Source: Methylococcales bacterium
Lineage (GTDB): Bacteria; Pseudomonadota; Gammaproteobacteria; Methylococcales; Methylomonadaceae
Reading direction: 5' to 3'
Length of the DNA stretch: 64,000 nt
Assembly: GCA_030949405.1 (NCBI GenBank)
Contig: JAUZSN010000002.1
Coordinates: forward strand, 1,178,001 to 1,242,000
Shown here piece after piece: positions 56,287 to 62,611 of this stretch. The first letter of the stretch is position 1. Every line of letters begins with the position of its first letter. Below the pieces are notes generated by a model that was not told the origin of the DNA, did not search any database, and worked only from the letters and a program-made list of their open reading frames with translations. The translations under genes and the position numbers were made by a program.

Positions 56287-56571
56287 TTTGTTGTCTCATT
56301 ATTTACAATCTCAAATTTTGGTACTATTTTACATTGAGGCTATGGAAGTATAAAGGGTATCTACTTTAAATTTCAGGGTAAAACAAATATCAGACCTGCA
56401 AACTTTGCGCTTTTTGAGCGATAAGATTCGCCATAGACGGCATTTTGAATTCACCACTAACTCGGTCATAAACATAATCATAAAAACTCACGGCTAGTTT
56501 TTTAGCCGTTTCAGCAAGACTCATAAAACTGTCTTTGATTTTCGTGCCTTTCTCATTTCGAGTCTGGAAGC

Positions 56572-56915
56572 TTATGTCTCGCGCACGCGCTTGTCTTCTT
56601 GATTCATCACTGTATTAACAGGTATTTGAGCATCAACTTTTACCCGCGCTTTATCAGCTAACTTGAACTCGTCAAGCAAGGATTGAGCTTGTTGATTGTA
56701 GATATAATGGCGTGGCGCATAGTCGGTCAGCACGTCGAGAACCGATAAACGGTCTTTGTTTTTAGGGGTGAAATAAGCGGTAAACAAGTCATTGCAGACC
56801 ACCTGACAATAGTGGTTATCACCGTTGACTCGCGCACTGGTATCATCAATATGACCGTATCACTATTGAGAATACCGCTGCGATAAAGCTCGCTTTTTTC
56901 CTGAGACTTAAGCAT
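56572..56915 (-). pseudogene. IS66-like transposase catalytic piece, frameshifted (copy 1)
   Basis: Reads MLKSQEKSELYRSGILNSD, then shifts into HIDDTSARVNGDNHYCQVVC and NDLFTAYFTPKNKDRLSVLD, ending at NQEDKRVRET. The DDTSARVNG stretch is probably the first catalytic aspartate region. Matches copy 2 at 61747-62087. Confidence 0.65.
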
Positions 56916-56920
56916 GGGAA

Positions 56921-57364
56921 TTAAGCTACGAAAAAGCCTTTAGATACTAAGTCGCTAGGCAAGCCAGTTTTGTCGAGTAGGCATTTTAGCGTTTGGTCGA
57001 TTTTAACTCGTGGGATCTTGGGTTTACGGCGGCGTTTTTTCTTATCCGAGTCCGTATTTTCAGTGTCGTTATTAGTTTCTTTTTGCGCGTCAACTTGTGC
57101 TTTTTTACGTTCGTCTTCGGATGAAATATCATCACCCTTATTATTTTTATTGGGTTTGATATCAGGCTTTCCCTGCTCACCTTTCAAGCGATTAACCTCG
57201 TCACGAAGTTGCTGTAATTCAGTTTCTAAAGACAATTTATCACTGGCTAAGCGTTCAATAAGATTGAATATTTTTTTGACAATATCCTGCGCTTCGCTAC
57301 TTTCCATTTGAGCGATCGCTTGATAAATGGCGTTAGTTTCAGCCTGTCGGTCGTGGATATTCAA
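56921..57364 (-). pseudogene. IS66-like transposase N-terminal piece (copy 1)
   Basis: 147 residues: a coiled-coil leader (QDIVKKIFNLIERLASDKLS, LQQLRDEVNRLKGEQGKP), a charged linker and the start of the IS66-like domain (IPRVKIDQTLKCLLDKTGLP). It ends in a stop after KGFFVA, where about 100 residues are missing compared with what the family needs. Confidence 0.65.
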
Positions 57365-57439
57365 AGTATGTAACTGTTCGTTAATTGCTACAAATAATGC
57401 AAGAAATTACAGATAACCTTAAATATCAACTTGTAAGAA

Positions 57440-57625
57440 AAGATTTTATTTAATTCCCATAAGTGATATTATGAGATACCAAAACAAACGAAATGGGAAT
57501 CATTGAAATCATGCTAAATGTTAATCAATTAACTGCATTATCAGAAGCAAACGCCGTAAATTCGGTACTCATCAGCGGTACAAGCGGTGGTTTTATTATT
57601 ATTAATGATAAGGAAATAAAAGCTA
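57440..57625 (+). repeat. 186-bp direct repeat, left copy
   Basis: About 95 percent identical to 58254-58442. It spans an upstream region (GTGATATTATGAGATACC) and the first 38 codons of a small ParC-like gene. The right copy has one extra ATT codon. The two copies bracket the serine recombinase gene. Confidence 0.9.
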
Positions 57626-57660
57626 TTTGTAAAAACGATTTATTTATAGGTGACTTATGA
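57511..57660 (+). pseudogene. Truncated copy of the small ParC-like gene
   Basis: 49 codons: MLNVNQLTALSEANAVNSVL is shared with the full gene at 58325, then after IINDKEIKA it diverges to ICKNDLFIGDL and stops. Its TGA overlaps the recombinase ATG (ATGA), so it now acts as a leader frame for the recombinase. Confidence 0.75.
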
Positions 57661-58280
57661 AAAAACGTGTAGCTATATATATAAGAGTGTCCACCGATGG
57701 GCAAACCACCGAAAACCAAAAGCGTGAGCTTTTAAACGTTGCTGAACATGCAGGTTGGGAAATTACAGAAATCTATGAAGATGCTGGAATTTCAGGGGCT
57801 AAAGGACGTGATAAACGCCCTGCACTTGATAATTTACTTAAGGATGCAACACGCAGAAAATTTGACATTGTAGCCGCGTGGAGTGTTGACCGCTTGGGCA
57901 GAAGCTTGCAAAACCTTGTTAGCTTTTTATCTGACATTCACGGTTATGGAATAGATTTATATTTGCACCAGCAGGGCATAGATACAACAACGCCAGCAGG
58001 TAAAGCCATGTTTCAGATGCTTAGAGTTTTCGCAGAATTTGAACGCTCAATGATTCAAGATCGCGTGAAAGCTGGGCTTGATAGAGCTAAATCAAATGGT
58101 CAAATATTAGGTAGACCATCAACCAATTCTGAAAAAGAAGCACAGATTATTGAAACCTTAAACACTGGTACTGGAATTTTAAAAACTGCAAAAATTCACT
58201 CTGTCGGCACTTCTGTAGTGCAACGTATTAAAAAAGAAATGGTGGAGGCAGACAAGGTTTTATTTAATTTTCAGAAGTGA
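57657..58280 (+). CDS. Serine recombinase (resolvase/invertase family)
   Basis: 207 residues. The nucleophile is S12 in YIRVSTDGQ; the catalytic arginine region is WSVDRLGRSL and the core helix is FAEFERSMIQDRVKAGLDRA. A short C-terminal helix-turn-helix spans about residues 150-195. It is of Pin/Tn3-resolvase size and lacks the long C-terminus of large serine integrases. It lies between 186-bp direct repeats and starts inside the truncated ParC-like frame. Substrate sites are not known. Confidence 0.92.
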   Translation: MKKRVAIYIRVSTDGQTTENQKRELLNVAEHAGWEITEIYEDAGISGAKGRDKRPALDNLLKDATRRKFDIVAAWSVDRLGRSLQNLVSFLSDIHGYGIDLYLHQQGIDTTTPAGKAMFQMLRVFAEFERSMIQDRVKAGLDRAKSNGQILGRPSTNSEKEAQIIETLNTGTGILKTAKIHSVGTSVVQRIKKEMVEADKVLFNFQK

Positions 58281-58442
58281 TATTATGAGATACCAAAACA
58301 AACGAAATAGGAATCATTGAAATCATGCTAAATGTTAATCAATTAACTGCATTATCAGAAGCAAACGCCGTAAATTCGGTACTCATTAGCGGTACAAGCG
58401 GTGGTTTTATTATTATTATTAATGATAAGGAAATAAAAGCTA
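58254..58442 (+). repeat. 186-bp direct repeat, right copy
   Basis: 189 bp, the partner of 57440-57625 in the same orientation. It begins within the last codons of the recombinase gene (its VLFNFQK end lies in the repeat). Confidence 0.9.
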
Positions 58443-58564
58443 AACGCGGTCACAAACGTATTTTTAAAAAATTACAAACTGCTGCATTTTTCTTGAACAA
58501 TAAAGGAATAGGAAAATTTACAGTTGATTTATCCGACTGGAAACCAGAAGGGGCTACTCAATGA
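58325..58564 (+). CDS. Small ParC-like plasmid-type protein
   Basis: 79 residues. IINDKEIKAKRGHKRIFKKL and GIGKFTVDLSDWKPE resemble a group of short proteins from plasmids and integrative elements annotated as ParC partition-associated. I base this on memory of the pattern, so treat it as tentative. The stop overlaps the primase start (ATGA). Confidence 0.5.
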   Translation: MLNVNQLTALSEANAVNSVLISGTSGGFIIIINDKEIKAKRGHKRIFKKLQTAAFFLNNKGIGKFTVDLSDWKPEGATQ

Positions 58565-59103
58565 CATTAGCATCCTATGAAAACGTAGAATCAGCTTTAA
58601 GATTTATTTCACCCGACTTTGAAGAACGTGAGGAATGGGTGAAAATTGGAATGGCTGTAAAAGATGGTCTAAACGGTGAGGGCTTTGATTTATTTGATAG
58701 TTGGAGCAAAGGCTCAGATTCTTATCAATCTCATGATGCGAAAGATACATGGCGGTCAATAAAGGCCGGCGGCGGCGTAACTGTCGGCACTTTATTTTAT
58801 TTAGCTGGTGAAAATGGCTGGAAACCAGACACCACGGCAGAACCAGAAACCGAACAGCAACGATTAAAGCGTGAAGCCGAACGCAAGGCACGAACTCAAA
58901 AGGAAGCTAGAGCCAAGACTACTAAGTCTAAACAAGCAATTGCAAAGGTCGAAAAACTTTTAAATACTGCGGTTCAAGCCTCAGAAAATCATCCTTATTT
59001 AATGAATAAAGGGGTCGGTGTTAATTATACTTTCTCTTTCTCCATCCAACAGGTCTCCCTCTGTTTACACTCACCAAATTATATATCAGCTATTCAAACC
59101 TGA
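58561..59103 (+). pseudogene. PriCT-2 primase, truncated
   Basis: The N-terminal PriCT-2 domain is clear: LRFISPDFEEREEWVKIGMA, FDLFDSWSKGSDSYQSHDAK and the TWRSIKAGGGVTVGTLFYLA block, residues 5-85. A charged linker and HPYLMNKGVGV follow; after about residue 155 the sequence becomes unrelated and stops. Family members continue into a Toprim or helicase domain for several hundred residues. Indicates a former plasmid, phage or integrative element. Confidence 0.8.
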
Positions 59104-59847: not shown

Positions 59848-60357
59848 TTAATATATCATGTTAAAATTCCATAGGATAGCCGCTAAAAAAGAAAATAAAT
59901 CTTTTACACCTTCTTTTTTATTTCTAAACTTGTCAACTAGGCATCTATATCTTTTCATTCCACCGATTACATGCTCAACAATGACTCTTTCACGACTCAT
60001 CTCTTTGTTTTCTTTTTTTTGATTTTCTGTTAATGTTGGGTTTGGATTATGCTTAGATTTATTTGGTTTTTTATGAGGAATATTTACCGAATTAGTTTTA
60101 TATTCATTATTAAACCCCAAATAACCTAAATCAATAAATATATTAAAATTACTAAACCAATTTAATTCTGGATTAAATTCTTTTTTAAACATTCCATAAT
60201 CATGATTTTTACCTGGAAAATTAACCCCAATATATAAAATTAAATGACCTAAAGAAGCTATAGTGGTATTTTTAATTGTATGCTGTTTTTTTACCACTGT
60301 AAAATTCATTTTGTTCTTCATAGTCACTAGGGCGTTGTACAGCACGCTCTGTAGCAT
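59848..60357 (-). CDS. IS transposase, second frame (copy D)
   Basis: 169 residues as an open frame; the functional part starts where the first frame hands over, at KKQHTIKNTTIASLG. One substitution (GVNFPG for GVSFPG) relative to copies B and E. Contains GGMKRYRCLVDKFRNKKEG. Confidence 0.92.
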   Translation of the reverse strand: MLQSVLYNALVTMKNKMNFTVVKKQHTIKNTTIASLGHLILYIGVNFPGKNHDYGMFKKEFNPELNWFSNFNIFIDLGYLGFNNEYKTNSVNIPHKKPNKSKHNPNPTLTENQKKENKEMSRERVIVEHVIGGMKRYRCLVDKFRNKKEGVKDLFSFLAAILWNFNMIY

Positions 60358-60775: not shown

Positions 60776-61296
60776 GTTATACTTTGATTTTTATTTTTTA
60801 TAGAAATTTATTATAAAGCTTATTTATTATTTTTAATAATTTAATTTAAAGTTTATTTATTAGGCTGTATCAACTGATTGTGAATGTTATCAAGTATATA
60901 TAAGCAATTGATTTTAATATATTTTATTTAGAAGAACAAGTCTAATAACCAGTCCTAATAAATGACAGTCTTGATCGGTAATACCTTCACTCGCATCAAT
61001 CAAATAAATGACCACATTGGCTTTTTCAATCGCTTGTAACGATTTAATAATACTGAACTTTTCAATGGCTAATGATATTTTTGCACGGCGACGCATTCCC
61101 GCCGTATCAATTAAAAAAAGGTCGCCACAAATGTTATGACGGTAAGTGGATTGTGGGTGAGACGAGAAAATTAGAATTAGCAGGTAAACAGGGTGGTGTT
61201 AAGATTTATACGTATCTACTTTAAATCTCAGGGTAAAGATAAAATTTCTAAAATAGATTTGACAACATATCATAAAAGAACGAACAGTTACATACT

Positions 61297-61674
61297 TTGA
61301 ATATCCACGACCGACAGGCTGAAACTAACGTCATTTATCAAGCAATCGCTCAAATGGAAAGTAGCGAAGCGCAGGATATTGTCAAAAAAATATTCAATCT
61401 TATTGAACGCTTAGCCAGTGATAAATTGTCTTTAGAAACTGAATTACAGCAACTTCGTGACGAGGTTAATCGCTTGAAAGGTGAGCAGGGAAAGCCTGAT
61501 ATCAAACCCAATAAAAATAATAAGGGTGATGATATTTCATCCGAAGACGAACGTAAAAAAGCACAAGTTGACGCGCAAAAAGAAACTAATAACGACACTG
61601 AAAATACGGACTCGGATAAGAAAAACGCCGCCGTAAACCCAAGATCCCACGAGTTAAAATCGACCAAACGCTAA
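61297..61674 (+). pseudogene. IS66-like transposase N-terminal piece (copy 2)
   Basis: Same coiled-coil leader as copy 1. A run of five A residues (six in copy 1) near 61620 shifts the frame, giving NAAVNPRSHELKSTKR and an early stop. Confidence 0.65.
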
Positions 61675-61746
61675 AATGCCTACTCGACAAAACTGGCTTG
61701 CCTAGCGACTTAGTATCTAAAGGCTTTTTCGTAGCTTAATTCCCAT

Positions 61747-62087
61747 GCTTAAGTCTCAGGAAAAAGCGAGCTTTATCGCAGCGGTATTCTCAACAGTGAT
61801 ACGGTCATATTGATGATACCAGTGCGCGAGTCAACGGTGACAACCACTATTGTCAGGTGGTCTGCAATGACTTGTTTACCGCTTATTTCACCCCTAAAAA
61901 CAAAGACCGTTTATCGGTTCTGGACGTGCTGACCGATTATGCGCCACGCCATTATATCTACAATCAACAAGCTCAATCCTTGCTTGACGAGTTCAAGTTA
62001 GCTGATAAAGCGCGGGTAAAAGTTGATGCTCAAATACCTGTTAATACAGTGATGAATCAAGAAGACAAGCGCGTGCGCGAGACATAA
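61747..62087 (+). pseudogene. IS66-like transposase catalytic piece (copy 2)
   Basis: Same as the copy 1 piece: MLKSQEKSE, then a shift into the frame carrying NDLFTAYFTPKNKDRLSVLD to NQEDKRVRET. The following 200 bases hold the rest of the element without a usable frame. Confidence 0.6.
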
Positions 62088-62611
62088 GCTTCCAGACTCG
62101 AAATGAGAAAGGCACGAAAATCAAAGACAGTTTTATGAGTCTTGCTGAAACGGCTAAAAAACTAGCCGTGAGTTTTTATGATTATGTTTATGACCGAGTT
62201 AGTGGTGAATTCAAAATGCCGTCTATGGCGAATCTTATCGCTCAAAAAGCGCAAAGTTTGCAGGTCTGATATTTGTTTTACCCTGAAATTTAAAGTAGAT
62301 ACATTTATACAGCAATCGTTAATTCTGTCTCATTGAAATGTAATATTCGCATCGCTTATTTAGTTAAAACAACGTCACAAGGTACACGTTATGCCTTGTT
62401 GTTTTCAACAGATACAGAGATAGATGCAATGACACTTTATAATAGACTTGTTCTTCTAAATAAAATATATTAAAATCAATTGCTTATATATACTTGATAA
62501 CACTCACAATCAGTTGATACAGCCTAATAAATAAACTTTAAATTAAATTATTAAAAATAATAAATAAGCTTTATAATAAATTTCTATAAAAAATAAAAAT
62601 CAAAGTATAAC

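Follow-up and report, generated by a model that had tools for sequence, protein, structure and literature searches.

A locus in a Methylococcales bacterium (contig JAUZSN010000002.1) raises the question of whether a serine recombinase gene lying between two copies of the 5' end of its neighbor is a unit that can leave by recombination between those copies, or whether the copies arose without any part played by the enzyme. We analyzed the locus within a stretch of 64,000 nucleotides, hereafter the window. A sequence-only reading had proposed that the recombinase borrows the expression signals of a plasmid-type ParC-like gene and that crossing over between the repeats would excise it cleanly and restore a single ParC-primase operon. 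Our analysis favors a different answer, to which we assign a probability of roughly three in four: the locus is rearranged debris of plasmid origin, in which a plasmid-type recombinase now sits in the chromosome, cut off from the site on which it would act in resolution.

The recombinase, its flanking repeats and the neighboring genes

Two direct repeats flank the recombinase gene, 814 nt apart from start to start. By sequence comparison, the left repeat (57441..57625, + strand, 185 nt) comprises the region upstream of a parC-like gene together with its first 38 codons, and the right repeat (58255..58442, + strand, 188 nt) comprises the 3' end of the recombinase gene, the parC-like upstream region and the first 39 codons; a length of 186 bp had been given earlier. 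The pair is well beyond chance (blastn 1.6e-85) and differs by six substitutions and one 3-nt indel equal to one codon, an extra Ile codon in the right repeat that accounts for the 38 versus 39 parC codons. The first 21 nt of the alignment take four of the six substitutions and the other 164 nt take two, a crowding for which the Fisher p value of 0.0016 is descriptive only, the 21-nt boundary having been picked post hoc from the alignment. Within the parC coding sequence the copies differ by one synonymous change and the in-frame codon indel, and both frames are open. On the left, the truncated parC-like frame (ATG at 57511 to TGA at 57660, + strand) encodes 49 aa from 38 parC codons and 11 foreign codons, and its stop overlaps the recombinase start in an ATGA joint (57657); the 31-nt leader with AGGTGA ahead of the recombinase ATG (57626..57656, + strand, taken from the sequence) lies outside the repeat. 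On the right, the recombinase stop lies 26 nt inside the repeat, and the full parC-like gene (58325..58564, + strand, 79 aa) has a stop that overlaps a primase start, again as ATGA (58561). The repeats and both ATGA joints around a full-length recombinase, as the sequence-only reading had described them, are confirmed by the alignment and the reading frames.

The recombinase itself (57657..58280, + strand, 207 aa) contains the Resolvase N-terminal catalytic domain (PF00239, 1.3e-45, residues 5-149) and matches phrog_125, DNA invertase (3.8e-51). The motif YIRVS occupies residues 8-12, and its serine is presumably the nucleophile. Among PDB sequences, phmmer matched a DNA-invertase, which we take to be Gin (4.8e-22, residues 8-188), and gamma-delta resolvase (2.2e-11, residues 8-192). 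The reach of the latter alignment, to residue 192, indicates a C-terminal DNA-binding domain; the C-terminal end is conserved with the related loci L010, L091 and L006, and the Pfam search gave no separate HTH match for it. The final 11 residues are absent from all five relatives compared (L010, L065, L006, L011 and L091), and the L010 protein stops at a valine matching the point before them; we infer that the ancestral recombinase gene ended where the right junction now lies. The AGGTGA before the recombinase start and the ATGA coupling were recognized by eye. A consensus scan of the region found one promoter-like site, on the - strand, fewer than in shuffles, and none on the + strand. Going by the coupling and the AGGTGA, expression of the recombinase through ATGA coupling or borrowed signals is possible.

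The ParC-like protein matches the family NF041544 (3.1e-08) at 33.2 bits, below the curated NCBIfam cut-off of 95; its PHROG match is no better than E 0.066. Homologs at E 1e-6 or better occur in 2 of 369 genomes of the class, its own included, and at E 0.01 in 30 of 301 genomes of the order, the best outside its own genome being 37% identical. Most of the homologs in the order exceed it in length; after several of them comes a frame that is RelE/ParE-like by eye, and the primase is absent from all loci inspected there. The primase in the window (58561..59103, + strand) carries PriCT_2 (PF08707, 2e-22) and resembles its relatives to about residue 154. Primase matches were found in 29 of 301 genomes of the order, its own included; each of the 35 matches outside its own genome belongs to an open frame of between 307 and 1075 aa, and for 21 of them the frame measures between 684 and 1075 aa, whereas that in the window has 191 aa. 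No close relative of the parC-primase pair was found in the class and order genomes searched. On viral contigs, 11 stretches fitted a pattern for relatives of the ParC-like protein and 12 for relatives of the primase, and none in either set was confirmed. The primase is an N-terminal stub, and excision could therefore not restore a working one. By arithmetic, crossing over between the repeats would delete the recombinase and leave one parC, as had been claimed, but restoration of a ParC-primase operon is not supported.

The recombinase sits on a contig of 2,969,825 bases, with the primase stub beside it and insertion sequence homology 58 nt away, a setting that is not that of an autonomous plasmid. 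This homology belongs to a multi-copy insertion sequence (56348..57382, - strand) and stops 58 nt short of the left repeat; a query with the insertion sequence gives 82 genomic matches, counting the query itself. Positions 56348-57382 and 61279-62310 of the window are inverted copies (99%) of one insertion sequence, and a different DDE transposase lies at 59848-60354.

Relatives of the recombinase and a candidate res-like site

Relatives of the window enzyme come from varied settings. In the tree it groups with L065, L010 and the enzyme of a Methylocaldum plasmid (L091), with support of 99/82 for the four, and L010 and L065 are the nearest. L010 adjoins KfrA_N, HTH and Rep3 genes, and L065 adjoins genes that do not look plasmid-like. 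L090 and L091 are complete Methylococcales plasmids carrying related recombinases, each with a second recombinase gene, and on L093 the recombinase is annotated in pieces. Further relatives lie on the main contig (C1) of their genome (L009) or on 6.3-Mb records (L052 and L066). A 5'-truncated relative (85-86%) in a genome of the same genus (L008, with L065 evidently the same place) sits between 29-bp repeats 736 bp apart. At L065:3970-4734, the 5'-truncated recombinase and an HTH gene lie between two 29-bp repeats that we take to be CRISPR-like in look. In L009 and L008, which belong to different genera, the recombinase has lost its N-terminus, and the loss ends at almost one and the same codon (73 to 76).

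A search for the same recombinase beside partial copies of its target gene, which the sequence-only reading had suggested as a check, came back empty. The DNA comparison covered the best 80 of 86 genome-contig loci plus L006 and L008 (82 loci in all; L007 and L009 were left out), each from 900 bp upstream to 3 kb downstream where the flanks allowed, with less than 50 bp of flank on one side in L041, L061, L062 and L083. None of the 82 has flanking copies of a gene's 5' end like those in the window; any DNA repeat at all occurs in four, namely L008 and L065 (the same place, 29 nt), L024 (26 nt) and L021 (42 nt, 79%). At the protein level, none of 79 relatives has a near-identical truncated copy of a gene's 5' end, and matches in six (L008, L020, L063, L065, L067 and L071) are short or distant. 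Those at L067, L020, L063 and L071 span 11 to 67 aa, and inspection of the first three revealed no near-identical copy. An element that inserts itself and duplicates its target is accordingly seen at none of these other loci (0/82 by DNA, 0/79 by protein).

The regions upstream of many related recombinases share a dyad, nTRTACGnAAAACA-NN-TGTTTTnCGTAYAn, with a half-site, CTRTACGGAAAACCCC, about 73 bp before the dyad start. In a hold-out test, where one half of the relatives served to train the matrix and the remaining half to test it, the dyad was found upstream of 50 of 70 bacterial relatives, in none of 67 downstream stretches and in none of 70 shuffled sequences; the separation is imperfectly clean, five hand-picked sites having seeded both halves and close relatives standing on both sides. 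Across whole loci (L006-L089), 61 of 84 carry a dyad above 13 bits, all upstream and none downstream, with two or three matches each in L011, L013, L076 and L077; the 23 without one include L010, L065, L008 and L009. Three positions exceed 13 bits against the dyad matrix in 379 kb of host sequence. In 55 of 61 checkable dyad loci, L091 included, the half-site falls between -74 and -71 relative to the start of the dyad, and in 36 its offset is exactly -73. The plasmids L090 (position 871) and L091 (position 4496) have one dyad each above 9 bits, upstream of the gene or of the preceding gene and accompanied by the half-site. One copy per complete plasmid is what is expected of a multimer-resolution site, and the composite site predicts, from its sequence, where these two plasmids would resolve; their gene tables list genes only, and there the site is neither named nor excluded. 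L092 has one strong dyad and, downstream of its gene, two that are weak (13.6 and 13.5 bits), and L093 has no dyad. Among 11 relatives on viral contigs, one passes the dyad threshold, and it lacks the half-site; the number of independent viral cases is smaller, since L117-L120 share one upstream sequence and L116 has only 58 bp upstream. With 10 of these 11 lacking the dyad, the viral contigs speak against its being a universal site of the relatives. By eye, L117-L120 seem to keep an accessory-like half-site alone and L121 a weakened dyad, all of them below threshold.

No composite site was found in the window. Against the family matrix the repeats score -3.3 bits at best, rank 84 in the window, and in a matrix-free dyad search their values were reached by 18 of 60 and 16 of 60 shuffles, against 0 of 60 for two site-bearing relatives. 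A crossover site in the repeats, for which the sequence-only reading had also advised a test, was therefore not recognizable as a dyad above shuffles. In the host genome (96% complete), pattern hits number 12 (6 + 6) against 10 (6 + 4) for the reversed control, all at three mismatches. The half-site-like string AGATACCAAAACAAA stands in both the left repeat (57474..57488, + strand) and the right (58288..58302, + strand), at rank 48 of 127,972 positions; the rank translates into a chance expectation of about 0.14 such strings in 185 positions on two strands. A DNA inversion system would have two inverted crossover dyads, and here the repeats are direct and hold no dyad above shuffles. A cognate res site was likewise not found beside the window gene, where a diverged one is possible since L010 and L065 also lack the dyad. 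These two and the 10 viral-contig relatives make the missing dyad no proof that the locus has no site, and the recombinase subgroup of the window may use another, unrecognized one. The proposal of an excision unit specific to the recombinase fares poorly all the same, with no dyad above shuffles, a best score of -3.3 bits, host hits at control level and no like copies elsewhere (0/82, 0/79).

Origin of the repeats

Duplications are not confined to this locus. We surveyed 464 kb, or about 16% of the genome, made up of the window and 20 further stretches; one of these, L147, was chosen for holding a second recombinase fragment, and two adjoin the window. Self-comparison gave 14 rows of nearby direct repeats (at least 60 nt, at least 80% identity). 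In five pairs the copies stand 200 nt or more apart, and four of these, including the pair flanking the recombinase, are longer than 150 nt; tandem duplications are also present. The three other separated pairs that we inspected involve a replication-initiator-like frame (by eye), a piece of an insertion sequence and a gene beside the second recombinase fragment. With several comparable separated duplications in 464 kb, an accidental origin of the repeats is unremarkable. The 6.5 kb of L155:9906-16441 contain three tandem duplications of 290, 839 and 1704 bp, all nearly identical (>99%). The second recombinase fragment (G000:C2:705288-705411, 124 bp, 98%) represents the first codons of the same gene; in L147:9538-10410 its first 42 codons follow a DUF5131 gene (PF07505), again with an ATGA joint, and break off at a stretch of about 250 bp in which the downstream gene is partially duplicated in tandem. 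L002 was considered as a second copy of the same arrangement and rejected, the duplication there being in the downstream gene, reading as a truncated tandem repeat and having a different layout. Together with the truncated relative in L008, the second fragment places pieces of this recombinase elsewhere in the genus.

The enzyme is most likely a multimer resolvase, judging from its plasmid-borne kin. The repeats are best read as by-products, neither made nor used as sites by the recombinase. They would date from the joining of a recombinase segment to parC, within the gene or next to it, through illegitimate or homologous recombination; candidate routes are a template switch at microhomology, deletion within a plasmid multimer, or integration of a related molecule by homology. 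The simplest joint would be a switch at microhomology in the AG.TTTTATTTAATT stretch. The lower similarity of the first 21 nt of the repeat may reflect an illegitimate junction where the recombinase gene ends, and an insertion sequence would have removed whatever lay leftward of the locus. An origin as debris is favored by the plasmid contexts of some close relatives, the missing family site, the primase stub, the insertion sequence boundary and the other duplications in the genome. Against it stand the open recombinase and parC frames and the tidy ATGA joints on both sides, as well as the lack of the dyad in L010 and L065, the relatives found off plasmids and the second recombinase on L090 and L091. 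RecA-type recombination between the repeats is a plausible way for the recombinase gene to be lost.

The direct repeats, the open recombinase frame, the ATGA coupling and the half-site-like string shared by both repeats would all suit a self-excising cassette that borrows expression signals, the enzyme acting on the repeats, leaving as a circle and inserting with duplication of the target's 5' end. We regard this as very improbable: about 0.14 copies of that string are expected by chance in a repeat, no dyad stands above shuffles, and the family dyad is missing from the repeats and not above control in the genome, while the 61 of 84 related loci that have it carry it always upstream and never downstream. 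Nor does any equivalent exist among the 82 related loci examined (the best 80 of 86 plus L006 and L008), and the right repeat starts within the coding end of the recombinase. The cleanly excisable, signal-borrowing unit of the sequence-only reading is hence not borne out, given also the primase stub and the duplications elsewhere in the genome. A variant in which the repeats hold a diverged, unrecognized site with AGATACCAAAACAAA as its trace, the gene being a minimal cassette that can delete itself and takes a partition gene's promoter and 5' end as its leader, strikes us as highly doubtful; if it were true, self-deletion of the cassette would restore the target gene. No more credence is due to a functioning two-state locus, in which selection would favor RecA-mediated loss of the recombinase as a switch: repeats of 185-188 nt and frames kept open are compatible with one, but the deletion is irreversible, the primase is a stub, and no sister genome in either state was present among the genomes searched.

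Integration of the Campbell type is unlikely but deserves some weight. A small circle or related plasmid carrying the recombinase and the parC 5' region would have recombined homologously with a resident parC, and the geometry fits a single crossover within the repeat, leaving one copy of the parC 5' end on each side; the two substitutions in the last 164 nt leave room for two related plasmid sources. No molecule with the recombinase and parC as a pair was found, however, parC homologs being as scarce as reported above (2/369 and 30/301 genomes), and similarity fades at the repeat's left edge in the manner of an illegitimate junction. Simple tandem duplication of the 814-bp unit with later loss of one recombinase copy would agree with the frequency of such duplications in the sampled genome and with insertion sequence homology ending 58 nt left of the repeat. 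It predicts the 3' end of the recombinase in those 58 nt, where there is no match; since the left flank is not a recombinase end, plain tandem duplication fits poorly, and we hold it improbable. The sequence-only reading had named two observations that would count against its own proposal, an arrangement found nowhere else and clear evidence of simple tandem duplication; the arrangement is indeed absent from the 82 related loci, and the duplication fits the left flank poorly. As a mobile-element story the locus matters little. As rearranged plasmid debris, it illustrates how plasmid genes can decay into mosaics in a genome rich in insertion sequences, and how tidy ATGA joints with flanking repeats can mimic a cassette. 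A useful by-product is a candidate res-like site for small serine recombinases of many, mostly proteobacterial, genomes.

Comparison with known systems

Titles and abstract openings revealed no recognizable published account of this arrangement or of the composite site, most subscription journals lying outside that scope. Partial direct duplications arise by illegitimate recombination in genomes rich in insertion sequences, and the repeats resemble them in size, divergence, undefined ends and the presence of others in the same genome; they differ in having a spacer of almost exactly one gene. The ParC-like protein is similar to the NF041544 family through a weak match over positions 8-78 of 80, and is set apart by its score (33.2 bits against 95). 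To Tn3/gamma-delta resolvase (2gm4, 1gdt) and DNA-invertase (4m6f, 3uj3) the window protein is similar over most of its length; unlike those resolvase and invertase systems, the locus has no inverted pair of sites and no three-part res that we could recognize. With multimer resolution by Sin and the beta recombinase, as described in the parts of PMC2428073 and PMC9943657 considered here, the family shares a plasmid-borne small serine recombinase and, in most of the bacterial relatives tested, a dyad with an accessory half-site upstream, whereas the copy in the window sits on a 2.97-Mb contig and lacks the site. In the part of PMC2428073 considered, Sin res measures 86 bp and has a head-to-tail site II and an HU/IHF site, against about 103 bp and one conserved accessory half-site for the composite of the relatives. 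As far as these portions of the two papers extend (PMC2428073, PMC9943657), a Sin-like res is the nearest described design to the composite site.
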